From positions 1,016,001 to 1,080,000 of the forward strand of contig OU696573.1 in assembly GCA_916048095.2 (NCBI GenBank): DNA of 64,000 nt. Direction: 5' to 3'. This DNA is from Sacculina carcini. Lineage: Eukaryota > Arthropoda > Thecostraca > Sacculinidae. Under the pieces are notes generated by a model. It was not told where the DNA came from, ran no database searches, and saw nothing but the letters and a program-made list of their open reading frames with translations. A program made the position numbers and the translations under genes. Shown here piece by piece: positions 4,487 to 56,404 of the stretch. The stretch's first letter is position 1, and each line of letters begins with the position of its first letter.

Positions 4487-6265
4487 TTTCGGTGAAAGTG
4501 TTTCATTCATATGGTTTGAGCGACTTCACAGCAAGGTGTGCTGCGTTCTCTGGTCAGATGCTGGTGGCGACGTGTATCGGCTGCTTGTGGGCGGCTTTCA
4601 TCGTGTACTTGTGCGACCCCGGCTCTTCACTGTTCTCGTGGCATCCCGCCTGCATGACCGTTGCTGTGAGTATCACCCACGAATATCTCCCGAGCAACTC
4701 AGTGACTTAAACCAGTGTTTCTCAGTCTTTTTTTGCCGTGGCCCCCTTCAACACAATGAGAGTTCTTGTGACCACCCATAAACAGTTCGTGACCCCCCTA
4801 GAATTCCCTGTGGCCTCCATAGACACATGGATCGTCGCGACGCGATATATCCAAAGGATTAGCTCATTTGCGCCGGTGAATATTCCCACTAACCACCAAA
4901 ATAATACCACGACCGTACATACAGGTAGGGTCAGCACACGAATGTTAATACACGAATGTTGGCGGATCAATCACACACGCCAGGCTAACACCGGGGGTCT
5001 CACTGTCGCGGCGGATTACACGATTGAAATGTATAACATCGACAATAATAACAGAGTAATACATTTTTTAAACTAAATATCTTCAGGTCCGTGAGAAATC
5101 ATGGTGCCCCCTCATTTTTTTAATTTAGTCCTATGAACCCTCAAAATCACTCAAAAATGGCCCACGGCGGAGCCGAATTTCATTGGGCGAATTTCGTAAT
5201 CCACAGCCCCTGTTCACCCAGCAGTGAATGATGGTACCAGATATCAGTCATGTGTTGTGTCATGCATTCTGGGGGTAGCTCTCTCTAATACGTCTTCCGT
5301 CCTTGTGGCGCCATAGCGTGGAGAGGGTCGGCTCTGCGGTGACAGCGAGCTGCACGGGACACACCTGTGTGTTCATAAGCTTCGACTTCTTCCCGTGTGG
5401 CAGCTGTCACTTGTAGACCTTTAACCTTAACATTTTAACCACGTTTAGAAGCACTGACGTAAACAATGAATATGCCAGGGGTTTGCGGTTCGAGCCCGGT
5501 CCAAGTTTCTTTCATCAACACCTTCGTTTGCATCCGCTGGCCCCGACTTTACATGGGTAGACAGCGAGCCACGTGGTATAAACTGGCAAGTTTTCTCGTA
5601 TAACTTTTCAGCGCTAATTCACGAATATTAATAATTGGAAACTTCTTTCAACGGTGTGTGTGTGTGTGTGCTGGCAGTATTCCGTGTTGATGTGGGTGGG
5701 CGCTTTACTACCGCGAGCTTCCCCGGCTGGCCGCAGTGGCTGGTGGGGGCGCCACCATCGCCAACCACTGCTCTCCTACCGCCAGCGACTGGTGCTTCAC
5801 TGGCTTCTCACAGCAGGGGGCGTGGCCTTGGCTCTGGCCGGCTTTGTCGCCATATTCGCCAACAAGCAGCGACGAGGCGGCGACGTCGTTCACTTCTCGT
5901 CGCCACACGGCCGCTATGGCCTGGCGGTGGTCGGCTGGACGCTGGCACAGGCGGCCGTCGGCGTCATCCTGCTGTACCGATGGCCCGCACCGAGCGCCCC
6001 TCCCGCCGGGGGAGTGAGGGGGGTGGCAGTGCGCGTGCTGCGAGCTCTCACTCTGAACAAGCACACGGTGCGAGCGGCTCATGCGCTATCAGGTAGTTTG
6101 CTGCTGTGTTGTGCCTTCTACAACAGCTGGTTGGGGGTGCGGTCGGCGTGGATGGTGGCCGTGTTACAGTCGCTGCCCGTGACATATGTAGCCGTGTGTG
6201 TCGCCTCCTCGTGCGTGCTGACCACACAGGCATATCACGTAGTGCGTGCACTGTTCAAATTCTAG
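4487..6265 (+). CDS. Cytochrome b561 domain protein (CYB561D1/D2-like transmembrane reductase), 5' exon missing
   Basis: Two exons are deduced: 4487-4665 and 5678-6265 (stop TAG). The first begins with two bases of a split codon after a TTTTCCCATCTAG acceptor, so an upstream ATG exon is still to be found. About 254 residues are visible. The cytochrome b561 core is clear: PGSSLFSWHP at the end of the first exon, LVLHWLL, a HFSSPHG segment and a VRAAHALSG segment supply the four histidines that bind two haems in this family. Five or six hydrophobic helices are evident. Family members pass electrons across membranes, often from ascorbate, and the D-type proteins sit on endomembranes. The second exon is GC-rich. 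Its acceptor CTGGCAG is preceded directly by a TG run. The intron carries a hAT-like repeat and a SINE fragment. Confidence 0.85.
4713..5160. mobile_element. hAT-like MITE copy in the CYB561D-like intron
   Basis: It starts CAGTGTTTCTCAGTC followed by a T run and then a characteristic tggcccccttcaacac segment. Related sequence recurs near 10565-10850, 25903-26174 and 26385-26790 in one or other orientation, including the shared tatggggccacaagg and ttcaccgacgta motifs. The right end is not clean. The family is inferred from the CAGTG-type terminus seen in the better preserved copies. Confidence 0.5.
5162..5432 (+). mobile_element. SINE, head-truncated copy
   Basis: This is the body of the tRNA-derived SINE described at 7453: it contains agatatcagtcatgtgttg, cttgtggcgccatagcg, cagcgagctgcacggga and the ttcataagcttcg segment, and ends in a TTTAACC-like tail. 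The tRNA-like head with the promoter boxes is missing. Confidence 0.75.
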
Positions 6266-7452
6266 AACTCAATCGCACACACACACACATAAACTAACAC
6301 ACACTCACAAGCATTTGGATACACATGCGTTCACATAGGCTTATCTACATTATTCAATATGCACAGGATATAAACACAAATATTTATTGGTATCGAAAAT
6401 GTTAATTGAGCTGTAAATGTGCGCTGAGGTGCCCCGTGGTTGTTGAGCGTGCGCTATTTGCACGAGGTCCTCCGCCAGATATTGGAAGGCGCTTCCAGCG
6501 AATTTTTGCTTGTGATAATTGTAATTAACACGATGATATTTTGGGCATATGAAGAATGCAATGCTGTCTGTATCAAACACGTATTTGCAAATAAACGTTT
6601 GTTGATATTTTGAACGAAGATACTTCGGTCGAACAGACACGAGCTTTCGGAAAAACGATACACTTTTACACGCTGAAATTGTCATAATCGTACACAGCGA
6701 TTAAATGGAAAGTGCACCAGTCAATATTGCACATGTCTGGGTTTCATTTCACTGAGCGCCATCGCCATCTGGCGGCGAAAGCGCAGAAGCTCTGGTTTGC
6801 TGAATCGCAGACAGATGGCGCTATTGTCAGCGCAGTTGAGTCGCAGCGTGACCAGAGGCTGCATCAATTTAGTGCCGGCGCTAGTGTCCAATAACACACA
6901 AACACACGCTGCAGAGCCGAAAGTACCCAATATCCAAGTACCCAATATACCAGCATTCAAACTCAGCACAGGGAATCGAAACCTGGAGTAATTGGCTATA
7001 AATTAGAGTAAACACTCTATTTAGCACATCCCGACGACTAATTTCTGTACATTTACTTTCCATTTCTCAACAGTGAAGAATCACCCACACAAGTTATGAA
7101 CCACTGAACCGGATCACACTAGAATGGCAGCTATACTAAACATTAGTGATTAAATTCACCTGCCGGCAGCCACCACGTCCAAATCCCAGGCAACCGACAA
7201 AATTGGCGGCGTGCCAGAACACGTGCCTGATGTTTGCGGGCACTTTTCAACGGCAGTCGATAATGTTTCCAGCCACATCGGCGGCGTTCTGACAGTAAAT
7301 AAATTATTTGCGGATACAATGTCATGAATAACGTGGAATATTACGGCTGAAATGATTTGTACATAGTGTTAGCAAAACTGGTATAACTTGTAGCAGTAAG
7401 CATTAAGTCTCATGTTAATTACAAAATATACTGATAACAATATACGATTTGT
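6266..7452. other. 3' flank of the CYB561D-like gene, no further gene seen
   Basis: A possible polyadenylation signal AATAAA lies at 6590-6595, about 325 bases after the stop. Short direct repeats (agtacccaatat) occur near 6920-6950. The open frames here are short and look random. Confidence 0.4.
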
Positions 7453-12800: not shown

Positions 12801-15800
12801 GAAATGTTGATGGTGATGATGATGGTGAGTAGCCCTGCTTTCCAGTGCGGGCTCGTTTGCAGGAGAGAATATCCACCTGGACGACCAGTGTCCATTGTGA
12901 TGTTAGTGTCCGGTTGTTGATAATGCACTACCGCGACAAAACCTGTTGTCGCCTCTCACTCTCTCTGTCTCTGTGTGAGTGTGTCGTTACAAGCTTGTTG
13001 AGCTGTCGCGGGGGTTGATATGAATTGTTTTGTGAGCCACCGTGTGTCTGTTTACACGCTGCAACCACACAGATGTACGTGTCATGTTTGTGCCTGATGG
13101 TCATGTTTGTGTGTGTTTACATTTGCGATCTAGTAACTCCATTCCTCATAGAGAGAATGTTGGCTGGTGTGATCCTCTTGTTATTTAAACCACTGGAGAT
13201 TAGCCGCACACACCGATATTTGTTCTCATCGGCTTCATATCATATTCCCTGAGTATTGTCATTGTATTTATCATCGATTCCGATCAGACTGGTTATTTGC
13301 TTAGAAATCAAGGCAGGACTAAGGTATTATTTGGTTGCGTCGAAGTGTTTAATGATTGGTAGAGACACAGGCTAAACACAGCTTCTTTTTCCAGCGTAAT
13401 TATCACCAAATGTTTCATTGCTCAAGTCCTCACATTTTTTTTTGCTGGCGTATAATCTCGATAATGTCAAGTTTGGTCACTGAATTGTCTTCAGAAACAT
13501 ATTCACTGTGTATTTGATCCGCTTTTCACCGTCTTCCTCAGTGTTCGTCTGTTTTGTACCTTTTACGTTCGTTGTTGGCCAAAATTCCACTGATCAGATC
13601 TATCATGATCTCTCGATGACCTGTCAGCCACGTAGAGTACTCTGGCACGCGCCTGTGTGTGTGTGTGTGTTAGGACCGGAGTATGGAAGCACGGAGTCAG
13701 CGTGGAAATCGGCGCTGGTGGAGGCGGACCGGCGGTGTGAGCTGCACTTACAGGTGCGCGACAACCTGCTCAATGATGTGCAGAGCAAAGTCAAACAGTG
13801 GCAGAAGGACAACTACCACAGGGTGAGCCAACACACACACACACACGGGGCAGCCTCCACCAGACTGTGTCGTTCTGAATGGGACGATTGAACCTGAACG
13901 ACTCCCACGAGTGTTTTCCAATGAAATGGTGCCGTATCACGCACATATTTGTGGGTCGTGATTGGACTGTGTACTATGAGTGGGGATTATCCCACCTAGA
14001 AAGTCAACATTCATCTTTTGCAAAGGGAAAATTGCAACAGATCACGGGATTCCCAGTTGTCCGTGCCGATTTCTGTGAATTGTGCTGTCAGAGATCTGGT
14101 TTATGTTGTACCCTCCTGGTAATTTCCACTACCGTCGTGTTGGGATGATTTGCACTCACCATCCACTTCTTTTAGTTCACTAATCCTACCATAACCTGGA
14201 TTCACTTGGACAGTCTGCCAATGGTTTGACAAAACTACGAGTTATTACTAGTGGTCTCATATAACACTAATATCATCTCGTGACTGGGTGAATCATAATA
14301 GCGGTGTGGTTTAGTCGTCGTGCACCACTACCAAAATTCTTCACTCAACGTCGAGTTTCAATGACATTCAGTTGGCATTCAGTCGTGTGGGCTGATTTTT
14401 TCGACAACAGTGAGATATGTCATTGTGGATTTTTGTTCATATATCACGTGCTCATACACAGAACGTACCTTCACGGAGCTTGTGCGTAGGCGGCCATTAT
14501 TGACTCACTTCACCGTACACGTTTTTATCGGCACGTGTTATGAGATTTTCGCCGAATCAGTGAATTATTATCGCATTGTTTTATGAACACATCTGGTTTC
14601 TTCAAATAGCGACTGTTATCGAGTTCTATTTGCGTGTTCGTTGCGTTCATTCTTTGTGTCGTCACGATTAATAACTGGTCTTGGCGCTTCATTTCGTGCT
14701 GCCATTTTGTCTACTACATTCTTGACAGATGAAAGCTACGATTTTGTGTCAGGATTATGGTGAGTACTCTATAGTTCTTATCGTCGCGAATGACAATCTG
14801 TCTTACGACGAATGAAGATCGTGGTTGAAAAAGGGAAAGAAGCTTGGTGTATGTATGCATTGGAAACTGGTGACTTCGGGTCTTGAATGTTTCAACAACC
14901 GCACGCTTTTTTCTATGCTCATATAAATCCCCAAAGACTCCCTGCCTGGTTCATGTTGAGAACAGGGATAATACGCCTACGCTTCAGTCCCGTCTCTCTT
15001 TCTCATTCTTGTTAGGTTAGGCAAGGTTAGACTCTGTTAGTTAGGGAAGAGAAAGAGAGCCTGGACTGGAGCGTAGGCGTAATGGTCCGTAGACGTAATA
15101 TCCTCAGCTCTGTTCTTGTTGATACTATTGTTATTCGCACGCGTGTGTGTGTGTGTGCAATAGCACACACACACACACGCGTGCGTATTATCCTCTTTCC
15201 TTGCACTGAGTTTGGTAATTGGGCCTATGCTAATACGTCTGCTGCTGGTGTAGTCCACTTCACAGCTCTCGCCTGCAACTCCTGCTTGGTATGCATGCGG
15301 CGATACACACACCTGTTTGTGTGCGTGTGTGTGTGTGCACGAGATAACCAGCAGCGGGGCGGTCAAGGTCGCTGAAGGTGACCGAAATTACGGCCACGTG
15401 TGTCAAACAGGATCGACAACAAATTGGTGGAGAACATGTTCGTGTATTGTGCAGCCGTCTGATAATTGATGCCAGTCACACATGTTCTCCATCTCACTGA
15501 AATTCTAGCAAATCTTGCGGTATCTTGCTATTTGAACCGTGGTTCTCAACCTTTTTGTGAGATCGAGTACCACTTGGAGGTCCCGAGTACAGTCGCCGCC
15601 TGGTACCACCTGGTTCCAGAGAAACTCAGCTCGATCAGATATCAGTGTATTTACATAATTGTACAAGTACGAGAACACAGGGATCAACTGATAGAAACAT
15701 GTTGTGTCTGCTTCTTCTCCAGCAGCTGGTCAATGAGGCACTAGCCGTGCGAGTAGCACAGGTTGGGAACCACTGTATACTGGATCAACCGCTGCTTACG

Positions 15801-21169: not shown

Positions 21170-24100
21170 GAACGTTTCTGACACCTGTACATCCTGTTTG
21201 CTGGTGATGCGTGAGTGGAGCATTGCTCACCTTGTTCACCGCTTCCTTCACCCATTATTGCCATCAACAACAACAACAACATGTATTTGATATAGCGCAC
21301 CTTCGAGGACGAAAGCGCGAGCAGTAATAAAAGTATAGACACATGGAGACCGGCATGGAGACAAAAACAAGCGGCACAAATCGACAGAAATTAGATGGGT
21401 GCTTGCACTCATCGCTTGGGGTGCTGATTCTGTGAGAAATTTCCCGAATTTCAGTGTTTCCGGTGAATATTGGCAGGATCCTGAACAATTTCCTTTCACG
21501 AGCGAATTTCAGCGTAAAAAGGAGTGACTCAATTGCTTGGAAAATGTAGTCTTTCAGCAAACTTCACTCTCTATTCACTAATGTGCACTAATGTACACAC
21601 CACAGCGCCTAGCAAACCGCTCTCGTACACGTATACATTAATAAAATCTCAACACACACACACATGTTCTTTTTCATATAGGTAACTTTTAGACTTCTTA
21701 TTCTGATGTTGTTGCATTCAGTATTTATCCGGAAGACAGTTTTCATTCTTTCTGTAAATGTCCCTGTCATTGTTAATTGACAGTTGATGTCGTTCGCCCA
21801 ATGTTCGTATTAATTTTATTACCTTCATTTGTCTTTGTTGCACTCTCTCTCTCTCTCTCACACACAATGACTGTGACGGACGGCTTGATCTGGTCCAAAC
21901 GCTGATATTTCTGCTAATGATCTCAGCTGTGTGTGTGTGTGTGTGTGTGTGTTCCGCTTCTCTGCACACGTGTGTGTGTGTGTGTGGGCGCTTGTCATTC
22001 TACTGTGCTATCCACCTACGGTAATTTGTATGCTTGCGCGTGTGTGCGTGTGTGTGAACACATAGTGGAAATTTCCTAGCGCGTTGGGGACCATCAACAT
22101 ACGGGCAGCTGGTATAACGGTATAAAACACACACACACACATACACAGGCAGGCAGGCATGTGCGTATTTCAGACATGCACAGAGGTGAGGAAAACTTGT
22201 CAGCGTGCGAGTGTGGTTGTGGCGTGCCTTGATTTTATGCTGGACATTCTCTAGCAAACACACACACAGGGAGGGGAACCGTTGCACTGCTTGCATGACC
22301 TGGTCAGTGGGGGCAGGGGGGTGGTGCAGACTGGCACAAACCAGTAGCATATCTCAAATGGATGCAGCGGGATTGTGGATTGGTGAACGATCAATCCACA
22401 ATCCACTCAGATACGCGGCCACCGCTGCTGCTGCCGCGTGTTTCAAATACCGAGCTCAAACTATGCACAGAGTCAGAGTTCGTGCGTGGGAGGCTGGTTT
22501 CGCTATGGTCACCATGACAACGGTAGGTGGGCCCACATGTCAACACACACACATGAGGGAAGAGAGAGCGAGGTGCCGACTCACTGGAAAAGACCATAGT
22601 TCGTTTTTCTCGCCGTTTTGTTGATTCAACATTGTTTTGTTTTTATCTGTTTCTTGTGTGTTTTTCACCGTCGCTCGCTAATCTGTCGCCTCTGAGTGTT
22701 TGACGCCATATGGTCCAGGAACATGTGGTGTGATTGTTGAATTCGGTCGTTTGCTCAAGATGTGAGCGTCATTATGTCTAATTCCAGTAATTACCTAGAT
22801 TTTCATTTGAACTTTGTGTTCTTGAAGAGAATGTTCCACTTTATGCGTGAACTTTTTATGCAAAAAATCAAGTATCAATTTGTCTGGGCGAATTATCTTC
22901 ATACCTGTGTTTTTATCAATCCGAATTCTTTGATTTTAGTTTCCAGTGATTTTCTGACATTTAACGTAGTGGAACAACTGATTTTATCGGATTTATCAGC
23001 GCTATTGTGCGTAAAATGAGGAGTTGGCTCACTGACCTAGACTATTGAATTTCTACTTGACGTTCAAGCTTATGTCTCGATGGTGGATTTTGGTTTGATT
23101 TCTTATTTCGATTGATCAGATTCAAGGTCAGATGTTAGTTGGCAATATGTTGCTCGTCTCCGTGTAGTTCAGCCAATATGCCAGATGTTTGATGGATTTT
23201 TCAGTCTCGTGATTTTTTGGTCCGTGCTCTTTCGATTCGCCATTTCACATATCGAACAGTTTTGTTGTGTTGGAATTTATCACGTGCGTTTGTGTGTGTG
23301 TTTTGCAGTATATGATGCAATTTAAGGAGAAACGGGATATTGACGACGCGTTCAAGAAGGCCCAAAAACCGTGGATTAAGCTGCTCACCAAGGTACCCTC
23401 TCTGTTCACGTGCTTAAGCACTCTCTCCATACACCATGTCTATACGACCTGCGTCACACAAATAGGGTGTGTTCGTTTCAACTTCAGAAGTCCTTCAGAA
23501 GTATTTCTAAGCGTTCGACTCTATATGCACACACACACACACACCATAAGCGCGTGCATACGTTCACTCTAGCTGAATTACCATTTTCTATGCACGCGCG
23601 GGACCTTCGATCTGTCTTCTCTGAATGTGTCTAATTATGCGGCCGTTTTGTGCGCGTGCGTGTGTCTGTTAACCGTGCCATTTGTCGTGATAGTAGCTGC
23701 TGATATGGCCCGAGGCCATCGGTGACCTTTTTGTGCGAGCGTCATCTGGTCATCGCTCACGTACGTCACGTGACCATGAGGTGTTGACCTTGCTGGGTCA
23801 ATACACTCGGTCATATTTGCTGCTACCGGGCGAATTATTATTTCGCGAATTATTCTTCTAATTTGTATAAATGTTTGTCTCAGCGTGATAAAATGATTGG
23901 TTCACCCCGCTGCGGGCTCAACTACAATGTTATTCATCGGTATCAAGCAGAGTTGGTCGAAACTTTTCCTGTGCTGGGTTTGAACCGCCAGTCGCATATT
24001 TCGCTATGTCTACCTGTGAGTTCAACTGTCGTAATTTCGGTCTCTTATAAATGCGAATCTTTTTCAGTGATCATGGTATTTGCCGTATTTGGGAAATTTA

Positions 24101-27100
24101 GAAAGCCCAGAAAGTATATTTATTGTTTAGAAAGCCTTATAATCGTAGACATTTGAAGATCTTAGTTTGTTCACTGGGTAACCATGGCAACAGAGGTCTT
24201 GTAACCATGAAAATCACGTTTCTATGGCACAAACTATGAGTGATGAAAACTTGTGAAATCCTGGATTCACCCAGCTTCACTCCAACATCTCTGGGTGGGT
24301 GTTTCCAATAACTGTACGTTATCCTTTCTATCAAGCAGGAATTTGTTGTGCTGTGAACAGACCCACTTGCACAGGAAGTGTAGGGTGATACGGCAGGATG
24401 TACCATGAATAATGTGTATGTGTGTGTGTGTGTGTAAAGGTGAATAAGGCCAAACATGACTACCACTCTGCATGCAAACATCAACGAACTGTGTCCGTGC
24501 AGGAGAGAAACGCCACCGGAGATGATTCCCTGTCCTCGGAAGCGGTGAGTGTTGATGTATGATCGTTGGACTCCGTGGTGTAGTGGTAGCACACCCGTCT
24601 CACAAGCAGGAGGTCCGTGGCTCGAAACCAGCCAGAGGAGAATTTCCTTGGGTGAATTCTATAATCCAACAGTCCCTGTCTACCCAGCAGTAAATGATGG
24701 TACCAGATATCAGTCATGTGTTATGTCATGCATTCTGGGAGGTGGCCCTGTCTAATACGTCTTTCGTCCTTGTGGCGCCATAGCGTGGAGAGGGTCGGTT
24801 CCGCGGTGGCAGCGAGCTGCACGGGACACACCTGTGTTCATAAGCTTCGGCTTTTTTCCGTGTAGCAGCTGCCACTTGAGGCAGTTAACTTTTAATCGTC
24901 TATTCTAGTGCTGATGTCGTTCGTTGTGTCTTCCACTATGTTCCATGTTGCCTCCGTTCCTATTTCATAATATCCACTTCTTTTAACGTTTGAAGCTTTT
25001 GTTAATGTTGAACGATCATGCCATATAGAAGCATGTCTTCAATTGTGTAATGATTATTTAAACAATGTTTTCAATTCAATTGAATCAATGTGTACAGGTT
25101 TTGTGTTGTGCCTAGTTGAAAGTGTGTACGCATATATCTACCTGTTGTCTACCTGTCTGGTGTATATAGTCAGTGGCGGTGAGATCAGTGCGGTTATCAA
25201 TAACTCGCTCAGTTGAGTGGTGCCACAGTGGCTCGTGCGGTGCTGTTACGAAAGTGGACTGACAGCTAACCGGTCGAGATTTTCGTTGTTGTCTCACACG
25301 ACTACTAGGCAGCCAGTCAGTCAGCCACGCCCTCGGCAACATGTTGTTTCTAATCGGCCACCACCCGTGCTGCCGTCTCCCCACCTCTGTCTTGTCTTGC
25401 TCCCGCCCCTCTCTCTTTCTCCGGTCTGCCTCTGTGTTCGTTTTTGTGTGTTGTAATGTGAGGCGGGTGTGCGTGCGTGTATGGGCTGCTCGAAGTCACT
25501 GGTGTATTTCCCGCTGGTCACTTTTTCCTATCATTGCCTCTACTCTTTCGTCTTTATCTCCCTCACTCTTGCTCTGGTCGTGTATGTCTGATTGCGTTCA
25601 TCTTAACGAATCCTGGATAGAGGAGGTGTTGGTAGTTTTGCGCGTGTCAGTTTGAGTGGTGACATCCTCACCCTCACTTCTTGTAGAATACTGGTTCTTG
25701 ACCTTTTTCCACTGTGTTCGCACTATTTTCAAATGAGAAGTCAGTTCTCGCACCTTACAACTCCTGTTAGAAAAAAGACTGCTTTTCAGGGAAGTATATG
25801 AAGCATAGGCAAAAACATATTTTTTCTTCAAATTTCTCATGAATCCTTGCACCTCTTAAAACTAGTCTCACACCCCCGGTTAAGACCCCTTGTTGTAGAG
25901 CATTGTTTCTCAACCTTTTTTTTGCCATGACCGCCTTCAACACAATGCGAGTCCTTGTGATCCCCAGAAACATCCCTTGGCCCTGCTAGAAGTCCTTGTG
26001 GCCCCATATACACACATGGATCTTCTCGTTGCTAATTATCCACACTTCTACGACAACTTGTTTCAGCATATATTTTTCGTGGCTCGTGAGAAACATGGTA
26101 GCCTCCCATTTTTACAATTTGGTCCTATGGTTCTTCAAGGAAATCCCGTGACCCCCGGTTAAGAATCATTGTAGAGGAACCTCCATCCTGTTAGCATAGA
26201 GTTCGATGTTCCAGGATTATACCAGCTACATATTGTCACTACATATCGACTGGTTTAATGGATTTCTCGGTGTTGTTGTGCAAAATTCAGAAGTTGGCTC
26301 ATTAAGAAATGGGGAATCAGAGAAAACAGGTTACTGACCAATGATCTTTCTATAACCAGATCATGTGAGCCTTCTGGACCAATGTTTCTCAACGTGCGTA
26401 TATGACCCTCTTGGGGGCCATGAAATTCTTTTGAGAGGACTTAGGACCAAATTTAAAACATAGGGGCCACCAAATTTTTGTCAGGGGCCACGAAAAATTC
26501 ATGTTGAAAATGTGTATTCCATTAATGTCATCGATGTTGTACATTTCAATCTTGTGATCCGCCGATGTCTGTGTGTGCTCACTCCACTTGTACGCAGGGT
26601 CACGGTGTTGTTTTGATGGTCAGTGGAAATATTCACCGACGTACAAGAGCTCTGGATAATTTGAGACGCGACTATCCATGTGTATATGGGGCCACAAGGA
26701 CTTCTAGGAGGACCACTGACTGTATCTGTGGAGCCACAAGAACTCGCATCGTGTTGAAGGGGGTCATGAGAAGGGCCGGTTGTTCTAGACATTGTACACA
26801 TCAGCCTAAGAACGCTTCATGTGTGTGTGGTTGTGTATGTGAGGAGGTGGATGCGTGTGTGTTGGCGGTTGTATATCTGTGTACGTGCATGAGTTTGTGT
26901 GCCTGCGTTTTTCTGTCCAGTGCACGTGAGATCTACCCTGTAATTATCTGGCGTGTGTGCATGTATGTGCATGTGTGTGTGTGTGCGTGTGTTTATATGC
27001 ACATGATGGCGAAAGTGGTGTTTTTGCTGTACTGGTGGAGCATCTCGTTGCTTCTCACGTGCATTTCTCTGATGATTTTATCTGTCGATTGATTGCATTT

Positions 27101-31899: not shown

Positions 31900-32032
31900 A
31901 TATCATTGAAAAAGCCAGCCCCCAAAAAACGTTTATGTTTTGGTGCATGTTTGTATGTGTGTGTGTGCTTGTATATTTGCGCATATATATAAGTTGATGT
32001 CGGTTTAATTTTGAGCGCATGTTCATATGTGT

Positions 32033-32064
<32 letters not shown>

Positions 32065-37110: not shown

Positions 37111-37616
37111 TGTGCATGTGTGTGTGTTTGTGTGTGTTTGTGTGTGATGTGCTTATTTAGACACGGCCATATTGCGACATTGATTCAAGCTGGTAGTTTG
37201 CGTGATGGCCACCAGATGGCGCCAGCTGCACTATCTGGACTATTGATCGTACCAGCAGCTATTGCTTGCTTGCGTGTTTGTATGCGTGTGTGTGTGTGTG
37301 TGTGTGTGTCAAGCCAACTGCAACAAGCCGATTGCCGGTAGGTCGCCAGACAGACATACAAACTCGCCGACAAACACACACTGACTGACACACTCACAAG
37401 CACCAAGGCGGAAGAGTAGGTCGCGCAGTGTCGGGCAGTTGAAAGGGTGATTTTTCCACCATTTCCGGCATCGATTTTGCGAAACTTTCTTTCTGGCATT
37501 TTGTACAAAAAAACAATGATATCGCTGGCACATTGCTAATTTGTTCTATTCGATGTTGTATTCGTTGTGTGTGTGTGTGTGTGTGTTTGTCAGACTAAGT
37601 GGCTTTGGTTGAACAG
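35886..37616. other. Intergenic or synapsin 5' intron, TG/CA tracts
   Basis: Long TG runs occur at 35960-36018 and 37039-37090, a CA-rich block at 36166-36230, and a TG run at 37566-37590 just before the first visible synapsin exon. The synapsin ATG exon should end here or further upstream with a phase-1 donor, but I could not identify it. Confidence 0.45.
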
Positions 37617-40600: not shown

Positions 40601-43600
40601 TCAAAGGTAACGATGGACCAAATAAAAGCCCCGAGTCAAAGCATCGCCTAATCGCCGCGCCACATCACACATCACACATCCTTGTCATTGCCACATCACA
40701 CATCCTTGTAATCGCCACATCACACATCACACATCCTTGTCATCGCCACATCACACATCCTTGTAATCGCCACATCACACATCACACATCCTTGTCATCG
40801 CCACATCACACATCACACATCCTTGTCATCGCCACATCACACATCCTTGTAATCGCCACATCACACATCACAAATCCTTGTCATTGCCGCGCCACCTGGA
40901 CCAACACCAATTCAATGAAGCCAGATAACAACAGTCCTTGATCAACGTTGATATTGCGCCAGATTCAGCCAGGGCGATCTGGACTCCGAGTTCGACGACT
41001 CCGACGAGATCCGGCAACGACAGCTGCGGAATGTGACCTCTCCTCCGGCCACCGGACATCCGTCCTCCTCCGTCTCGACCTCTTCCACCACCACCACCAC
41101 CACGGCTCCATCCTCTGGTGGACCGTCGCATCGTCCACCGTCTGAAAGTCACCAACAACAACAACAGCAACAACAGCAGGAGACAAGTGGAGGGGGAGGA
41201 TCGTTCAGCTTCGGCGGCTTCATGACGTCATCACGCACCACTTCGGCCCCCACCAGTCCCAGCAAGTCCCGCGAGTCTTTCCTACAGCGAGTACAAAGTC
41301 TGACGGCTGGAGTAGCAAGGTTAGTGGGTCGTTCGGACAGAAGATGTCGTCCAGAATTGCCTATGTATTTGTGTCTGCATGTGCGGCATTATACCTTGAT
41401 TTGTATTCGTGATTAACTATACTGTGAATGTATCATGGCAGTGAACAGTGCCAGTGTATTAAGCCTGCGTCAATATTGTTTGTTTTCTCCCAGACCGGAA
41501 ATTCTCTCGCGACAATCACACAACAAGGAACATTGTTTCACTCTGCTGATCATCGACGACCAAAACACAGACTGGTGAGAACATACACTCACATACACAC
41601 ATACAGACACACACAGACAGACATTGACATAATTTAGCCAAAGGTGGATGACATATGTGTCGTAAATATAGCTTAGCATAAATAACATAAAACATTTTAT
41701 ATCATGGAAAAATTTCATTTTACTAAGCGGATAATTTTATATTGTACGATTATTACAAACTCTATAACATTTACTAATATATATGGTTTTATAATTTTTT
41801 ATAAATTGTCCATATTAAGATATATCTATATATTTGTATTTTCTTGTAATGTCAGGTCGAAATATTTCCGAGGACGCCAACTACATGGGGATTATGATAT
41901 CAGAGTTGAACAGGCTGAATTTAGCGAATTATCAGTGGTTGGCAGCACTGAGAACGGCGCCACGGTTGTCATGACAACGCAGCGTGGAGGAAACAAAGTT
42001 TCCAAGTAAGTCAGCCGCTTAATTGACAACATTTGATGTTTTTTTTCAGTTGGAGCCAAGTTTTTGATCCAGTTAAATGTACACGGTAATCATGTGATGT
42101 TTGTTGTTGGGAACTTCGCTTGATATCTGTTTTTGTCGATTTTTTTTCTGGTGTGTGAAATACATGCCCATTTACTATTGGACATAACAATTAGAATTTA
42201 TGTTTTGAATATGTATGTTCGAGCATTTGGGGTTTTTCATAAGACATTTTTATTGCTTTAATGTATATTGCTTTAATGTTATATTTAATGTATATTGCTT
42301 TAATGTTTTTGTTGCTTTAATATAATATAATTTATTGGGTTCATCGAACGATCGTCGGGAATTTACACGCTAGACGCCATTTTTGTATTGAATTTTTTAT
42401 ACAAATTAATATTTATGGTACGTTTTAATTACTATTAATAAAAATATTGTTTTAAATTATAATTACAAATATTTTTGTACTAAAATTAACTAATTTGTGA
42501 GTAATGTCTAACAAGATGGAATTTGTCGTCATTTTAAACATTTAGATCGTTTAAGCCTCATTTCGTGCTCGTGAGGCAAAACATACGCGATCAACCTGAC
42601 GACTACAAGCACATTCTGCTGGGTTTGATGTACGACAACGTTCCAGCCATCAACAATCTGGATGTCATCTACAATTTCCAGGTGCAATTTCAAAAGTAGA
42701 GGAAAATGTCTACACTGAAATAAAATACCTTTTCCCTTGTGATAAAATCGGCTTAATTCATTATTAGTATATAATCTACAATTTTCTTATCAATTTTTAA
42801 TGAAAATATTTCTCAAGTTATCACGCTTTTGATATTCAAATAATCCTCCAAATTGTAAATTCAGCCATAATATGCTAGATCATTTGTAACATTTTTTTCT
42901 CTGATTCCCCCCTTCTTAATGAGTCATCACTTCATTATTCACAGCAGAAATCCGATTAATTAATTCGTTACACCAAATCAAATGTGAGGAAGGCGCTAGA
43001 AACAAAACTATTCGAGTTGGGATTGTTGAAATCACACACACGTATTTGTCATTCTGTCCGACCTTCACAACGGATCACTGGGCAGGATCACAACGGATCA
43101 CGGGGCAGGATCGTCATGTTGATCCCGGTGGCGGATCCAGAGTGCAATTTTGGGAGGAGCTGAATTTATTCTTTTGGGGAGGGGGCTGAATTTTGGGGGC
43201 GATCAGGCATGTGCATGCATCATTATGCAACGTCTATGCGATAATGCTTATATCAACAAATTGTACAAAAGATATATTTTTAACTCTTTTGGTTATGAGG
43301 AGTTGATGAAAAACATTTGGTCGATCCGCCAGCCATATAATTATCTAAAAAAACTGATTGAATATACACACAACCCAACAAAAACCGTTTTCTTGACTGC
43401 TTATAAGCTCTGTTTAATATAGATTATTCATCTTTCTCACTGGCTGGTGAATTTTTGTCTGTTATCTGTTATTTTTGTCCAGGATAAGCCATGGGTGTTC
43501 GCTCACATGCTGCAAATACAGAAAAAACTGGGCAAAAACGTGTTTCCTCTGATTCAACAAAACTACTACCCCAATCACAAAGAAATGGTAAGTAATGTGT

Positions 43601-45557
43601 GAACACATAACATCTTAACATCTATTATATCCAGGTTATTTTTCCACACAATCTTAGCTCATTTTTCTTGCATACACGTGATTGGTATCCTGAGGATACC
43701 ACAGAAAAATTTACACAAAACTTCTCATTTTTCACATAAATATAATTTTTACACATAAAATTCAAATTTACGCAAACGTTTCAATTTTACATATGTATTA
43801 TAATTTCACGCTTAAATTGTATTTTTAGGCTTAAATTTTGCGCTGTTATATTTGTCATTATATCTTTTTTTTACCTTATTTAATATACGTATTTAAATTT
43901 GATTTTATTCATGCTGTTATCATTATCCTATTAGCTTTATTGTCTGTTTGAATGTCTTATTCACTTGACTGTCAACTAATGTGTGTGTGTGTGTGTGTGT
44001 GTGTTTTAATGTGATGACCCCAGATGACCGCTCCGCATTACCCGTGCGTCTTCAAGGTGGGTCACGCTCACAGCGGGGCAGGTAAGGTGCGAGTTCAAAC
44101 GGCCACCGAGTACCAGGACATGACCACCATGGTGGCTATCACTGGCTCTTACTGCACCACCGAGCCACTCATCGACGCCAAATACGACCTGCATGTGCAG
44201 AAAATCGGCAACACTTTCAAGGCGTTCATGTGAGCAGTGACTGGTTGTCATGGCAACGTCAAACAACAAAAACAACAACAACAACAACAACAACATGTAT
44301 TTAATATAGCGCACTTTCGAGGACAAAGGCGCGAGCAGGAGCAGGGTAATAAAGTGTAGACACAGAGCGGTATGGGGACAAAAATATGGAGCACAAATCG
44401 ACAGAAAGTGCATGGGTGCTTGATCTTGTGCTGCTGTAGAACAGTATAGATGATTATCACGCTTGTGTATACCAGAGATAATCAGAAAATAAACCAAAAA
44501 TATATCGTAAAATCTCTATTTCACCGGCATGTCGTTTTATTTTTCCAATCTTCACTCATAGTGCCGTTCAATTAGAGGTTTTACGGTAAATTAGTTGATA
44601 GAGATAGAAGTTCCAGCGTCATGTGGCGTTGATGTTGACAGGCGCAAGTCGATCAGCGGCAACTGGAAGACAAACACGGGTGCGGCCATGTTGGAGCAGA
44701 TGCCTGTGAGCGAGCGACTGCGTGGCTGGCTGCAGGCGGTCAGTCAGATGTTCGGCGGCATGGACATGTGCTCGCTGGAGGCCCTCGTGGACAGCGAGGG
44801 TCTCGAACACATCATCGAGCTGAATGACTCGGCCATGCCGCTGATGGGAGACACGCAGGAGGAAGATCGACGTCAAATTGTCGACCTGGTCTGCTCCAAG
44901 ATGCAGGTAACAGGATGATATTGTGCAGTGGTTCTCAAACTTTTCCTCACCCAAAATATAGCACAATTCAAGCATCGCGACCCAAGCCTTGTTATACTGT
45001 ATGTATAACAAATACATACAGTTATTGTCTACGAACCCTTAGCGACCAAATATAATGGCTTGGCGACCCGAGGGTTGGGAATCACGGACAAATTATGGGG
45101 TTGTAGTTAGAGGTTTTCGTTGTGTGTGTGTGAGGGTTTATGCTTCTTGTATTTGCTTGTGTGTTGCTTTGCGCAATGTATATGTATGCTTGTGTGGGAG
45201 TGTGTGAGTAAGTGCGTGTGTTTGCAAAGTGCAGCGTTTGCACAGTGCTGTGTTTGCAGGGTGCGTTCTTGGTATCGGGTGTCGTGTTGCGATGTGAAGA
45301 TTTGTGTGGGGAGTGGTGTTCGGGCGTTTTTGTTGGGCGGTGTGGTTTTGTAGGCGCGCGTGGGAGCGCGCCTGTCTTTTAATACATATTGTTACAGAGG
45401 TATATATGATTTGATGTGAGGGCTCGATGAGCGGAGAACAGGATGCAGAATTCCCATGGAGAGGATTTCTGCTGAGTCGTGACATTTCACGCTTTCACTC
45501 TGATTCTACGCTCTTCTCAAACTCATTGTTCGTGCATTCCTGAATCATTTTGTCAGC

Positions 45558-45589
<32 letters not shown>

Positions 45590-46259
45590 AGCAGTATTGT
45601 TGCAGACCCCCGGTGGTGCCGGGTAGCAGTTCCGGTGGAGTGAGTGACCGACCCGAGCAGACGAGACCGGCTGCAGTGCCTCCTCCACGTCCTCCGAGAC
45701 CAGAGGAACCTCCGCTTTCGGCCGGAATACAGCCGACGTCCTCTGCTGAAACGTCTTCTGAGCTGAAGCGACGCGACTCGCAGGGTATCCAAGACTCTTT
45801 TTCCGATGTTACCAGTAGATTATATAGAACAATGATTCCCCAAACTCGCAAAAAATTTCACCATTGTTTGTTGCCACATGTTGAGAAGAAACACTGGGAG
45901 ATCGAGACTTGTGACAGGTATCAGCTAGTTCTAGTGATTATGAGGTGGAATTCGTTGATGATGAATGTTTATTGTGTGTGTGTGTTGCATCAGGATCACA
46001 GAGCGGAAGTGGTGCTGCAGGCACAGGGGTGACTCGATCTGGTTCCCTCAGCGGAGAACGAAGAAGATCTGGGACTCAACAGAGCGGCTCCTCTGCCGCA
46101 GGTTCAACTTCGTCTTCCGTCACAACCGCATCGACCACTTCTTCAGCCAAGGTCACACGTCAAGGATCGGCTGGTCAGAGCGACGGCAAGACGGAGGACG
46201 GAGAGGATACCATGACCAACTTGCGCAAGACATTCGCCGGAATTTTCGGCGACATGTAG
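37617..46259 (+). CDS. Syn: Synapsin, N-terminal exon missing
   Basis: Ten exons join in phase: 37617-37701, 40963-41319, 41494-41574, 41856-42005, 42546-42681, 43483-43587, 44024-44229, 44642-44906, 45595-45784, 45994-46259 (stop TAG), 612 residues visible. The first carries domain A ([12 protein letters not shown], joined to FSQGDL), giving the RRFS protein kinase A site across a splice junction. A Gln/Ser/Thr linker contains [20 protein letters not shown]. The ATP-grasp-like domain C follows ([62 protein letters not shown]). A proline-rich region and the C-terminal domain E block ([16 protein letters not shown]) complete it. Synapsins bind ATP and coat synaptic vesicles, clustering them and releasing them on phosphorylation. 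The first visible exon has no in-frame ATG, so a start exon lies upstream. Polyadenylation signal at 46913. Confidence 0.95.
38351..38696. mobile_element. hAT-type MITE with perfect 8-bp duplication, in synapsin intron
   Basis: The left end is cagtggttcccaaccttttt and the right end aggctgggaaccactg. The flanks are identical: ccctagag at 38343-38350 and 38697-38704. The perfect duplication shows a real, fairly recent insertion of a 346-bp non-autonomous hAT element. Confidence 0.9.
39969..40213. mobile_element. MITE with CACTGGCGGGTCCAGAG ends
   Basis: The left end cactggcgggtccagag is complementary to the right end ctctggatccgcca. A C run follows near 40008-40017. A truncated relative begins at about 43129 (gtggcggatccagag). 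Confidence 0.6.
40640..40890. repeat. Tandem repeat (cacatcacacatcc units) in synapsin intron
   Basis: Units of about 26 and 35 bases alternate, made of cacatcacacatccttgt and atcgc pieces. The array ends about 75 bases before the synapsin exon at 40963. Confidence 0.85.
41965..41978. promoter_or_regulatory. RFX X-box-like palindrome inside a synapsin exon
   Basis: GTTGTCATGACAAC is a perfect 14-bp palindrome. It is coding (part of ATVVMTTQ), so it may be chance or a dual-use site. Confidence 0.25.
43129..43250. mobile_element. Truncated MITE in synapsin intron
   Basis: It starts gtggcggatccagag like the element at 39969 and carries ttttgggaggagctgaat and gggggcgatcaggcatg, the last echoing gactgatcgcccccaaa of that element. 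The right end is missing. Confidence 0.5.
44244..44257. promoter_or_regulatory. RFX X-box-like site beside a synapsin donor
   Basis: GTTGTCATGGCAAC lies 14 bases after the donor at 44230. It fits the X-box consensus with one asymmetric position. Confidence 0.35.
44262..44420. repeat. Dispersed ACA-tailed repeat, copy 2
   Basis: An (ACA)n run is followed by atgtatttaatatagcgcac and tttcgaggacaaaggcgcg, ending near gcatgggtgcttg. It is closely similar to 21262-21405 and in the same orientation. Confidence 0.7.
44926..45087. mobile_element. hAT-like MITE, degraded, 19 bases after a synapsin donor
   Basis: The left end is cagtggttctcaaactttt and the right end gagggttgggaatcac. The target duplication is no longer clear. 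Confidence 0.55.
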
Positions 46260-47777: not shown

Positions 47778-49259
47778 CTATTCATCTTCTGCTCCGTCTT
47801 CCTCATCCTCGGCCAACTCGTCTGTGACAGGCAAACAGAACCACATGAACCTCAGAAAACCTCCGACATCAACCCATTCACCCACGACGATAATATTGCA
47901 TGAATAATAGTAGATTATCTGATGTTCAATCTATAAGTCTTTGGAAACTGCTAGGAGCGGAAATAGGCAAACTGACCTTCATCCTCCTCTCCCTCCAGAT
48001 CCTCATCCTCCAGCTCGACAACGTCTTCATCAAGTCCGTTCTCCAACTCGACATCGGGAACGAGGAAATACTGCAGCGGATTGGGCCACATGTCGTCCTT
48101 GATCACCTCAGCGATCTCGTCCTGAGACGGTTCGTCGTGATCCTCCAGCCACAAGAAGAACGAGCGCGGCTCCATGTCCATCTTCTTGCTGCGCTTGTCC
48201 TTCACCAGGCGTGCGTTCACCTTGGCCGTCAGATCGACGCCCTCCTTCCACTTGATCTCAGTCGACACGGATTTGTGCTCTACCGCGCACACACAATACA
48301 TCGGCCACAACACAATCAGACCGCCACACCAAGCAGTGATTCTACCGTAGATCAACTCTATAACCAGTAAGTGAAGCAACTGAAAAGGAAACTACGCCCT
48401 CGCACGTGTCACTAGAGCAAAGTCAAGCTCATACTAAATGTCAAATATAATTCAAACTGTATATGAACCAACATAAAACGCGTCAGATATGTGCGTTCAA
48501 GATATCAGTCGTACCACACAATAGAGTCAAACATTAGCAGCGTTAAATGATAGTCCATAGTGTAGCTTACCTGCAGAGCCCAGGTGAAATTCTTTCATGA
48601 GAAATTCATTCGTGAAGTACGGGTTGGACTGAAAATGGAACTTTATCCTATACCCTGACTTGATGTCATCAAACTCCTCCACCTCGACGCGCGACAGGTA
48701 ATTGAGACACTCCTCTTCCTCTTCGTGAAGTATAGCTGAAATCTGTGGGTGGTTGACAAACTGAACAAGAAACACGGTCAAGGAAACCAGCATTTCAAGC
48801 AAAACACAAAATTAGACTACCATATTCAGTGCAATAATTAACGAAAATCGTAACGATACACTGCCCGAATACTAGTCCTCAAAACATATCCAGTGAATAT
48901 TACAACGTTTAATAAAGAGAAATCTAACAAAAAATTGAAGCCAAACGAGCACGATATTCATAAATCAGACCACGAAACTGATGAAAAACCGAAAAGGATA
49001 CAGCCGTCATCCAGAAATCGGGAATCCTTTTGATGATGCTGCTTCTCTTCTCATAGAGAGGGACTCTTAGTTTGTTGTACTTCTGCTCAACTTTCAAAAT
49101 CTCATCGCTAGCCTTCTCGTTGAGAGCGTCGATTTCATTCTGACAGCTATCAATTTCTTCGAGGGTTTTCTGAGTCTCTGGATCAAACTCTTTTCCATCT
49201 TCAGCTTCGTGAACTTCTTCCTTCTTGGCTTTCTTCTGAGGAGGACCTTCAGCTGCCAT
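47778..49259 (-). CDS. Set: SET / TAF-I nucleosome assembly protein family, complete
   Basis: Four exons on the minus strand join in phase: 49259-49002, 48760-48571, 48279-47977, 47821-47778 (stop TAG), 264 residues. The N-terminus is lysine-rich ([10 protein letters not shown]). Residues about 25-85 are the long dimerisation helix ending RIPDFWMTA. The earmuff domain follows ([77 protein letters not shown]), and then an acidic Glu/Asp tail. SET binds histones, inhibits protein phosphatase 2A and blocks histone acetylation in the INHAT complex. Length fits the family (about 270). It is transcribed away from RSBN1, about 1 kb apart. The acceptor of exon 3 carries a TG run on the transcript strand. 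Confidence 0.95.
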
Positions 49260-51523: not shown

Positions 51524-52307
51524 ACTCACCTAGTTGTGCTCACCTAAATGTGTTTACGGAAAATGAGCTGGCGTTGTCCCGTCTCCATATCTCCGTATTT
51601 ATTTATTTCCCTCCTAAATGAATTTATATTTTCGGTCGCTACGGTGTAATTACTCGAACAATTCCACTCACCTATACATCTGAAGAAGCTAGGGACATGA
51701 AGAAGCCGTGTGTCGAAAACGTTGGTACTAATAAACGTTGGTACTCAAATATATTCAGACATAGTGCCCGATGAAGTTAGTGCTTTAAATCTATAATTAT
51801 TCCGGGTGCGTGAGTCAAGTTCAATTTGGATTCATCTATAAGGGAAGATATTAGCTTAAGATTCCTTCTGCACCTGGTTATTTTTAGTTTCCTCATTTAA
51901 TTCATACATGTGTGTGTGTATGTGTGTGTGTATGTAGGAGGTGTTTGCCGAGGACGAACATGGATGTGCCCGACACGTGATGGGAATAGTGCACGGTGGC
52001 GCCACCTACCTGCCTGACTTGCTCGAACATCTGGCCGAGCGCAGGCCGACGCTGACAGTCAAGAATGACGTGATGAGCGGTGCGGCGTCGCGCGGCGATA
52101 TTGAAACTCAAACTCTCTCCGCTTATGTAGAACAGGTCAGCTCCTCTCTCACTCTCTCTCTAACTCTCTCTAACTCTGTCACTGGCTGAGTGATTGGGTA
52201 TATGTTTTTCGCAAGTGTTGGTGTGTATGTGAATGTGTATATGTGCGGGTGTCTGTATATGTGTTGGTATGTGTGTGTGTGTATGTGTTTGTGTCTGTAT
52301 ATGTGTT

Positions 52308-52343
<36 letters not shown>

Positions 52344-55300
52344 TCTGTATATGTATGAATGTGTGGGTATGTTTGTGTCGATGGGTGTGTGTTTTTCACG
52401 TTTTTATGCCTGTGTTTCTGCATGTATGCGCGTGCAGGTTCGTCGTAACTACAGTGGTGGCACATTTCGCTACGGGCCGCTGGATCACATCTCACTGGTG
52501 GGCACTGTGAACGAGGAGTGTGGCGGTCTTTTTCCCGACATGCTCGCGCAGCTGGAGTCCAGTGCGTTTTTGCGTGCTGTTATGCCGTGGGGCCGGTTGT
52601 CCAATGTGTGTGGTCTGCCGCCGCATCAGTCCAACGACGGGCCGATCATGTGGACCCGGCCTGGCGAACAACTCATTCCCGCCGGCCATCTCAACGCTCG
52701 CAGCCCAATCAAACGCAAACGGTACCACCACCACTACATGCATGTAAAGGTTCAGAGTTAAAGGCTGCTCAAGTGACTGCTGCTACACGGGAAGAAGCCG
52801 AAGCTTATGAACACACAGGTGTGTCCCGTGCAGCTCGCTGCCACCGCAGAACCGACCCTCTCCACGCTATGACGCCACAAGGACGGAAGACGTATTAGAG
52901 AGGGCCACCTCCCAGAATGCATGACACAACACATGACTGATATCTGGTACCATCATTTACTGCTGGGTGGACAGGGGCTGTGGGATTGTATAATTCGCCC
53001 AATGAAATTCTCCTCTGCCTGGTTTCGAACCACGAACATCCCTCTTGTGAGGCGGGTGTGCTACCACTACACCACGGAGTCCAACTTAACATATCGACAT
53101 ATACTAACACACACACACACACGGACATACACAAAGGCACACACACATACACTGACGAATGTGTGTGTATGTATGTCTGTTTGTCATCAGCCAGTTGTTC
53201 TGTTCAGCAAGAAGTCAAACATTCATCGTAATATTATAATTGTTGAATAAATATGTGTTATTTTCTGGTTGATAATCAAAATTCTGACATTCCATTGCAG
53301 TGTTATTAATTGTGAATTTATCAGGAAAACTGTCTATTTTTCTGACTGTCGTTTCTCATAAGCTACTTGTTATTGAATGTGTGTGTGTGTGTGTGCTCTG
53401 CTCTCTCCCTCTCCATCTTTTGCCTTGTGAATGCATGCATTTGTGTTAGTGCATGTGTATGTTTGTACAGCGCCTTAGAGACCCTTTAGGTGTAGGGCTC
53501 TATATAATTTTTTTCTTCATAATGTAATGTAATAATAATGTATGTGTGTGTGTGTGTGAGTGTGTGTGTGTGTGTTATTGCAGAGGTGCGGGTATCAATG
53601 AGCTGCGCAACTTGCAATATTTACCGCGCATGTCGGAGGTGCGTGAGACCATGTACGAGGATCGCACGCGCGCTCATGCAGATCACGTCGGACATGGACT
53701 GGACCGCCGTACCACCGCCGCAGTCGGTCTGTCTGTCTGTCTGTGTGTGTGTGTGTGTGTGTGTCTGTTCGAGTGTCTGTCTCTCTATGTGTATATGTGA
53801 TACATATGTTTGTGTGTGTGTGTTTGTATGTGTATATGTGATACATATGTTTGTGTATGTGTGTGTCTGTTTGTGTATATGTGATACATATGTTTGTGTA
53901 TGTGTGTGTTTGTATGTGTATATGACACATATGTTTGTGTGTGTGTGTTTGTATGTGTATATGTGATACATATGTTTGTGTGTGTGTGTGTGTGTTTGTA
54001 TGTGTATATGTGATACATATGTTTGTGTGTGTGTGTTTGTATGTGTATATTTGTGATATATATGGTTGTGTGTGTGTGTCTGTTTGTGTATTTATTTGTG
54101 ATACATATGTTTGTGTGTATATGTCTGTTTGTATGTGTATATTTGTGATACATATGTTTGTGTGTATATGTCTGTTTGTATGTGTATATTTGTGATACAT
54201 ATGTTTGTGTGTGTGTGTCTCTGTATGTGTATATGGGGTACATATGTTTGTGTATGTGTATATGTGATACATATGTTTGTGTATATGCGATATATAGGTT
54301 TATATGTGTATATGTGATACATATGTTTGTGTGTGTGTTTGTATGTGTCTGTTTGTGTATTTATTTGTGATATATATGTCTGTGTATGTATATGTCTGTT
54401 TGTGTGTATATTTGTGATATATATGTCTGTGTGTGTGTGTTTGTGTGTGTCTGCATGTGTATATTTGTGATATATGTCTGTGTGTTTGTGTGTGTGTGTG
54501 TTTGTGTGTGTCTGCATGTGTATATTTGTGATATATGTGTGTGTGTTTGAGTAGGCGTGTTGAAGGCGGTACATTGTGGCGAGTCGTACAAGTACAATCG
54601 TGTCACCAAAGACGTGGTGGCATTTCACGCGGCAGACTTTCACACGCTCGTCGGCAATCTACAGTTAGACCTGCATGAACCACCCATGTCTCAGGTATGT
54701 GTGTGTACTCAGCTATTTGATTAGCACAGGAGATGAGCTATGCTAGTACTGTCCTGTCTCCAACCCACCCTCTAGTAACCTATCTTGCCTGAAATTCCCA
54801 GTATTTCACACTATGCAGTCTTTGTTTAAATGCTCCTACACTTTCTGCTCCTACAATATCCTCCCCAATAACTGATTCCAGACATCAACACACCTGTATA
54901 TGAGAAACTATACTTCTTAACATCTCTCAAACATCTAGTCGTTTTCAGTTTTTTCCATGACTCCTCTTGCCTGAATTATCCCAAACTATACAATTATCCC
55001 TATCTAACTTTTGCATACCTATTATATGTCTAAAAATATTAATCAAGTCGCCTCTTAGCCTACGCTGTTCTAAAGATGGTAAACCAAGCACTTTTAGTCT
55101 TTCCTCATGTGTGTGTGTGTGTGTGTGTGTGTGTAGACTGTATGTTGGGTGGAGGACGCCAAGTTGAATCTGCTACGTCGCGACGGAGTGCGTTATTCTC
55201 GCATTCAACTGCACGACAACGATATATATTTTCTGCCCAGAAATGTGATTCATCAGTTTCGCACGGTTACTGCAGTCACCAGCGTAGGTGAGTGCATTCT

Positions 55301-56404
55301 CGCTCTTTCTAGACAGTTCCTCTCAAACTCTCTCTTTTTCCCGTCTCTTCCTCTCTCACTGTTATCCGATTGTTTCATCCGCATTCTCCCGTTTGTGTTT
55401 TGGGTTTGTGCTTGTTCTCATTCTCTTCTCTTTTATTTGTGCATTTAAATTACACAAAACACAATTCTTATACACAATGTTATGTGATAGTTTTTCAATA
55501 ACTCTTGTGTGTGTGTGTGTGTGTGTCTCGTGCAACTTACAGCCTGGCACGTGCGCTTGAAGCAGTATTATGGTGATTGTGAGCGACAGTCGCCGACACC
55601 CGAGCTCAAGCGAGATAGCAGACACGCAGTCAGTCATACAGATATTGCCGCGCGTCACGTACACTCATGCACCGACACACAGACAGACAAACAGGCGGGC
55701 GGCAGTGTGTCAGTGGCCACCTCGACGGATATCGTAGAAGGCGACGACTCGCCGGCTACTGTGCCACCGGAAAAGCATAGGTCTCATTCGACGGACGTCA
55801 AATCGACGTACGTCAAGTCGACGGACGTCAAGTCGACGGAGGGCATATCTTCTGGTGTTAGTGTGACTCAGAAGAGCTCTGTTGACGTGAAATCCAGTGA
55901 CGGCCCGTCCAGAGGCGTCAAATCGACACACGTCAAGTCGACGGACGTCAAGTCGACGGAGGGCATATCTTCTGGTGTTAGTGTGACCCAGAAGAGCTCT
56001 GTTGACGTGAAATCCAGTGACGGCCCGTCCAGAGGCGTCAAATCGACACACGTCAAGTCGACGGACGTCAAGTCGACGGACGGCGAATCACAGCGCAGTG
56101 GCAAGCGGAGACACAGCAGCAGTGCCAGTGCGTCGAAGAACAAGCGTGCGGCGAGAAATCACAGCGGGGAGGGGTCGAGAAGCGGCCGCAATGTCTCGCA
56201 CGTCGGCTCTTCAACAACATCTTCCAGCAGTCACCAACGAAGACGTCATCACACGAGCAGCAGCGGCGATTCTCACCGTCACAATCATCATCACAATCAC
56301 AATCATCATAGGAAAGATCGCAGACGCAGTAGCGCTGATAGTGGCGCCCCCACGACGGCAAACTCACACACTAACACCACAACTGTTGTTTCTTCCAGCG
56401 AGAC

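Follow-up and report, generated by a model that had tools for sequence, protein, structure and literature searches.

We examined intron acceptors in a 64,000-nucleotide stretch of the Sacculina carcini genome (contig OU696573.1, positions 1,016,001 to 1,080,000 of the forward strand; hereafter the window, numbered from its first letter) and in three gene families sampled across the genome, and found that many acceptors are preceded by a tract of T and G in place of the usual tract of T and C. In the genes sampled, the tract marks the acceptor end and the sense strand specifically, appearing as a run of at least four TG units, (TG)≥4, in about 60% of acceptors and in a looser form in some others. 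The pyrimidine tract is regarded as standard at metazoan acceptors, and programs that predict genes or splice sites depend on it. The most likely explanation, and one we hold with reasonable confidence, is a constitutive U/G acceptor tract bound by PUF60 and/or the two U2AF65 paralogues of this genome. A literature search, mostly of freely accessible papers, found no description of a genome-wide U/G acceptor.

The starting point was an earlier note on the window, made from its letters, which held that TG runs mark splice acceptors, always on the sense strand, with about 16-17 of 30 acceptors carrying such a run and none carrying a CA run. We could place 26 acceptors rather than 30, 14 of them via tblastn homology (PACSIN, synapsin and SET, a set which includes the synapsin acceptor 41494, a weak tblastn match with E=1.5) and 12 as put forward in that note from AG and open frame only (“proposed” below). 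A perfect (TG)≥4 or (GT)≥4 lies within 60 nt upstream of 16/26, leaving 10/26 without such a run, and (CA)≥4 occurs at 0/26; the background at plus-strand YAG trinucleotides (C or T before AG) between 4487 and 56000 (n=1196) is 6.1% for TG and 4.1% for CA. The homology-placed acceptors have a TG run in 6/14 cases (p=1e-4), and the proposed ones, at 10/12, are richer than this independent set. All 16 listed plus-strand exon starts have AG immediately before them and TG-rich DNA upstream, the exon 3 acceptor of SET has its short TG run on the minus strand as claimed, and the association at 52438 is as loose as had been said; acceptor 31217 does have a UG tract, but an interrupted one. The absence of CA-run acceptors stands as a count, but within the window alone it is not significant (p=0.37, 24 plus-strand sites). 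The window features are as follows, the last three being counter-examples.

5655..5677, plus strand: UG tract and AG before the CYB561D-like exon 5678; (TG)8 at 5655-5670; proposed exon
13654..13673, plus strand: UG tract and AG before syndapin (PACSIN) exon 13674; (TG)8; exon via tblastn
23291..23308, plus strand: UG tract and AG before syndapin exon 23309; (TG)5; exon via tblastn
24419..24439, plus strand: UG tract and AG before syndapin exon 24440; (TG)8; exon via tblastn
31182..31216, plus strand: interrupted UG tract and AG before proposed syndapin exon 31217; no perfect (TG)4; exon by reading frame only
32028..32072, plus strand: UG tract and AG before syndapin SH3 exon 32073; (TG)13; exon via tblastn
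37566..37616, plus strand: UG tract and AG before proposed synapsin N-terminal exon 37617; (TG)10; exon without homology support
43980..44023, plus strand: UG tract and AG before synapsin exon 44024; (TG)12; exon via tblastn
45559..45594, plus strand: UG tract and AG before proposed synapsin exon 45595; (TG)15
45973..45993, plus strand: UG tract and AG before proposed last synapsin exon 45994; (TG)6
48280..48298, minus strand: short UG tract and SET exon 3 acceptor; tblastn; AG ambiguous by 2 nt
51909..51937, plus strand: UG tract and AG before RSBN1 exon 51938; two (TG)5 runs; proposed exon
52378..52437, plus strand: weak UG tract region and AG before RSBN1 exon 52438; proposed exon
53543..53583, plus strand: UG tract and AG before RSBN1 exon 53584; (TG)8 and (TG)7; proposed exon
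54487..54554, plus strand: UG tract and AG before RSBN1 exon 54555; proposed exon
55108..55136, plus strand: UG tract and AG before RSBN1 exon 55137; (TG)13; proposed exon
55506..55542, plus strand: UG tract and AG before RSBN1 exon 55543; (TG)10; proposed exon
41456..41493, plus strand: synapsin acceptor 41494, pyrimidine-rich (T+C 0.74), no TG run
28010..28046, plus strand: syndapin acceptor 28047, T+C 0.70, no TG run
4450..4486, plus strand: CYB561D-like acceptor 4487, T+C 0.81, no TG run

The TG-run observation is confirmed and extends past the window. Exons of myosin, CCT and kinesin were located in the genome (264.4 Mb, 43 contigs), and 48/86 myosin, 45/59 CCT and 25/123 kinesin matches were used, many of the unused kinesin matches being single-frame motor domains. 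Splice-site assignment drew on profile continuity, open frame, phase and a donor matrix and favoured C or T at -3, with no other intron composition entering the score, and the assignment presupposed AG acceptors and GT or GC donors. One myosin exon beyond the retrieved DNA and one single acceptor with <110 nt upstream were left out. This yielded 109 acceptors and 72 complete introns, with 576 mid-intron windows as controls. In a strand-aware count of TG against CA in this sample, with intron-middle controls, (TG)≥4 lies within 60 nt upstream of 67/109 acceptors against 80/576 mid-intron windows (Fisher p=5e-24), and (CA)≥4 at 0/109 acceptors against 69/576 (Fisher p=6e-6), making the lack of CA-run acceptors significant in the genome sample. 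All three families point in the same direction with unequal strength (CCT 29/39, myosin 28/45, kinesin 10/25), and the high-confidence pairs (score >0, no profile deviation) have TG at 25/33 and CA at 0. Across the genome the pattern (TG)8N7AGGT has 1758 matches against 605 for the reversed pattern, which is suggestive but may reflect repeat decay.

Base composition shows that the tract is more than a set of repeats. At positions -30 to -4 of the 84 myosin and CCT acceptors T+G reaches 0.779, against 0.515 at 600 control YAG sites in the same introns, whereas T+C is 0.535 against 0.536, so pyrimidines are not enriched at all; G is 0.339 and C 0.095, with G exceeding C in 73/84 acceptors and in 235/600 controls. 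The 25 kinesin acceptors have T+G 0.735 and T+C 0.553, and all 109 together have A 0.132, C 0.099, G 0.329 and T 0.44. Mid-intron DNA has G 0.175-0.179 and C 0.212-0.214. A strand asymmetry of whole introns was considered as the cause and rejected: mid-intron G (0.179) is below C (0.212), and the excess of G is therefore local to acceptors. Even the 29/109 acceptors without any (TG)3 in -60..-4 show a weak bias the same way (G 0.22 and C 0.16, against 0.175 and 0.214 mid-intron). The earlier suggestion that TG replaces the pyrimidine tract is thus supported beyond the window, with T+C at background and T+G far above it, but what takes the place of the tract is general U/G sequence and not only perfect TG repeats; nor is the replacement universal, as 30/109 acceptors have no (TG)3 in their last 100 nt.

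These figures also bear on the idea that the runs are tolerated microsatellites. TG repeats, being free of AG and half U, would on this account survive near acceptors where CA repeats are purged, and ordinary U2AF65 would read the U half with no new signal involved. TG repeats are indeed frequent, with 108 runs of at least four units throughout the window, and U2AF65 is described as able to adapt to most degenerate tracts (PMC7703929). Mid-intron DNA, however, is free of the supposed constraint and still has fewer TG runs (80/576 against 67/109), so tolerance alone cannot yield the excess, and acceptors are both richer in G (0.329 against 0.175) and poorer in C (0.099 against 0.214) than the intron middle. 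We regard tolerance as an unlikely explanation; in a milder form, with the U half read and G merely tolerated, it is possible as a binding mode. Taken together, its position, its excess over the intron middle and the lack of a pyrimidine tract suggest, from the DNA, that the U/G tract is a functional signal.

TGTG density peaks at -10 to -30 and falls to the mid-intron level by about -150 to -200, the 84 myosin and CCT acceptors are preceded by an AG-free stretch with a median of 63 nt, compared with 14 nt at control sites, and base -3 of the same acceptors is C in 0.73 and T in 0.19, a preference partly built in by the YAG bonus. The canonical metazoan 3′ splice site read by U2AF65 is similar in having C or T at -3, a T-rich tract abutting the AG and an AG-free zone, but differs in that here G stands in place of C and T+C does not rise above background. 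Purine-rich acceptors (at least five purines in -10..-3, as defined in PMC6339879) make up 23/109 of the sample and 3/24 in the window, against the figure of about 4% for metazoans given in PMC6339879. REPA, described in the same source as G tracts between pyrimidine tract and AG, resembles the present case in placing G near the AG, but GGG occurs within -15..-3 of only 4/109 acceptors, G mostly alternating with T. There is also a likeness to human PUF60-activated exons, for which PMC6093180 and PMC7969005 report UG-rich tracts and long AG exclusion zones, both also seen here; those exons form one regulated class, whereas here the arrangement is apparently the default.

Sense-strand GT repeats just before the acceptor are also known from zebrafish, where, in a class of introns, (AC)n beside the donor pairs with (GT)n beside the acceptor (Lin et al. 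2016, via PMC6093180 and PMC9198270). If the same held in Sacculina, (GU)n before the acceptor would pair with (AC)n after the donor and juxtapose the two sites, making U2AF2 dispensable. CA runs do directly follow some donors, for example in the window near 13822 and 28280 (syndapin) and 41575 (synapsin), at several CCT donors, and as (CA)4 at 5/19 kinesin donors. Overall, however, CA lies within 60 nt of the donor in 14/72 introns against 69/576 mid-intron windows (p=0.09) and TG in 9/72, which gives donors no clear CA polarity, and donor CA and acceptor TG do not co-occur in the same intron (53 introns, Fisher p=1.0); AC/GU pairing was rejected as a general rule on these counts. The arrangement is reported for about 10% of zebrafish introns (PMC6093180), and TG runs precede about 60% of the acceptors sampled here. 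Genome-wide, the strong-donor pattern AAGGTAAGT followed within 32 nt by (CA)5 has 2 matches and followed by (TG)5 has 12, at 8 distinct places, counts which are hard to calibrate and serve as a pointer only, the reversed-pattern controls giving far more (96 and 104). Pairing of the zebrafish kind is very unlikely to account for the acceptor tracts. The sampled donors favour G at +3 (0.53 of 87) and are GTGAGT-like rather than GTAAGT, though the matrix that placed them favoured A.

A U/G tract acting as the constitutive signal would call for a protein that accepts G, and the genome encodes plausible ones. PUF60 (TIGR01645) has one locus over the cut-off, on C31, in a single frame which includes the UHM. 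This copy keeps the six UG-pocket residues Y132, F172, F174, K201, R204 and N207 (numbering set from Y132), which surround bound UG in PUF60 according to PMC7703929; by the same account PUF60 seems to bind poly(GU) still more tightly than poly(U). Two loci score above the U2AF65 (TIGR01642) cut-off of 310.3 bits, at 421 and 412 bits, each a single open frame, arranged head to head at C26:1032220-1036661; no third, intron-split U2AF65 gene was recognised among the weaker TIGR01642 matches, such a gene being not wholly excluded. The two proteins are 73% identical over 386 aligned residues, with diverged RRMs and near-identical UHM ends: the two genes agree at 98.6% of their last 360 coding bases and stay similar for ~50 nt beyond the stop, as if gene conversion kept the UHM halves alike while the RRMs diverged. 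RRM2 differs from the human chain in both copies at three positions which we take to be uracil contacts (N268P/G, N271T/S and N289H/H). T252 is D in the plus-strand copy, and single copies also differ from human at Y152, H230, Y302, K328 and R334. Both keep R146, Q147, N196, K225, R227, V254, D256, K260 and F304; of the human RNA contacts (RRM1, linker and RRM2) named in PMC4786784, T252 is the one that differs, and in one copy only.

Other UG-binding proteins were suggested in the earlier note, and the tracts might be regulatory elements, CELF or TDP-43-like sites controlling alternative splicing instead of a constitutive signal. The association of TARDBP with GT repeats is known (PMC13174678), and TDP-43 N domains occur at three loci (C26:5886003-5886991 and C29:895365-895583), two of them head to head ~550 bp apart. 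A regulatory role nevertheless sits badly with tracts at most acceptors sampled from CCT and myosin, which are conserved genes, and with their occupying the position of a pyrimidine tract which is itself missing; we consider it highly improbable. On published biochemistry and residue comparison, PUF60 and the unusual U2AF65 pair are the better reader candidates than CELF or TDP-43, and our hypothesis for the tract-reading protein ranks PUF60 first and the diverged U2AF65 pair second. SF1, taken as a control, has a single match in the genome, and a PTB/hnRNP-L-like gene forms a single-frame inverted (tail-to-tail) pair at C8:8602377-8611471, with further exon-split matches on C10, C31 and C21. 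The PTB/hnRNP-L-like and TDP-43 pairs indicate that duplication of splicing factors is not specific to UG readers.

We therefore return to the constitutive U/G tract. In the mechanism we propose, the default 3′ splice signal would be a U+G tract in the last tens of intron bases, before a CAG acceptor, filling the role held elsewhere by the polypyrimidine tract. It would be bound by G-accepting proteins of the U2AF family, namely PUF60, whose UG pocket is preserved, and/or the diverged pair of single-frame U2AF65 paralogues, and these proteins would in turn bring U2 snRNP to a branch point on the upstream side of the long AG-free stretch. The tract would often have expanded into plain (UG)n microsatellites, which may accumulate at acceptors because slippage can lengthen a dinucleotide repeat there without harm. 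How this came about is a more tentative matter, for which we see slightly less than an even chance: the lineage may have switched its default 3′ signal genome-wide from U/C to U/G with a co-evolving reader, either PUF60 taking over as the constitutive factor or the U2AF65 paralogues gaining tolerance of G via the RRM2 changes, their UHM halves kept alike by gene conversion. Tunicates offer a partial parallel, in that non-canonical introns are reported there together with diverged U2AF2 paralogues (PMC13326754), much as two diverged U2AF2 genes accompany altered intron ends here; tunicates, however, break the GT/AG rule, whereas here it is the tract that differs, the site assignment having assumed AG and GT/GC.

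Several observations weigh against this explanation. Perfect (TG)4 is lacking within 60 nt of 42/109 acceptors, the kinesin set is weaker in both TG runs and T+G, and the window acceptors 41494, 28047 and 4487 have ordinary C/T tracts, so that both kinds of tract coexist. The AG-free stretch is ≤10 nt in 7/84 acceptors, perhaps through misplaced sites, and a search for branch-point motifs upstream of the sampled acceptors gave no clear signal. All junctions come from homology, frame and GT/AG, several of the paired and kinesin introns score poorly, and the sample consists of three conserved gene families and is not random. On the protein side, the conservation of two of the PUF60 pocket contacts carries little weight because these are wholly or partly main-chain, and a second PUF60-like locus, on C16, falls below the cut-off and has RRMs with no UHM found. 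Most of the U2AF65 contacts named in PMC4786784 are conserved, and ordinary U binding may thus persist; and, given the paired PTB/hnRNP-L-like and TDP-43 loci, the U2AF65 pair may have arisen for reasons unrelated to UG tracts.

If true, default U/G tracts would show that the metazoan acceptor signal can be rewritten and would provide a natural test of U2AF65 and PUF60 specificity. Standard gene prediction would then be expected to do badly on the genome of this animal, and TG microsatellites would be functional sites and not neutral repeats, with lengths that may tune splicing.

Some further features were seen in passing. The window holds a 120-bp tandem repeat (2.4 copies, 97% matches) at 55796-56084, in the open frame of the last RSBN1 exon, and a compound 24/31/55/86-bp tandem array at 40658-40888 in the synapsin region. 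Elsewhere, beside exon-split kinesins, 24 kinesin motor domains were each covered over their full length by one reading frame, which in one case has two stops; many of them cluster at C11:1.88-2.06 Mb and others lie on other contigs. Kinase exons were rejected as a test set, the listed PF00069 matches sitting in long single frames. Clustered open frames of ~1500-2900 aa hold several protein kinase domains, one roughly every 1.2-1.4 kb and intronless between, at the following places.

C20:3.26-3.46 Mb, kinase-domain frame cluster
C24:7.69-7.78 Mb, kinase-domain frame cluster
C15:7.16-7.31 Mb, kinase-domain frame cluster
C31:15-87 kb, kinase-domain frame cluster
C35, kinase-domain frame cluster
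C6:4.50 Mb, kinase-domain frame cluster
C19:1.73 Mb, kinase-domain frame cluster

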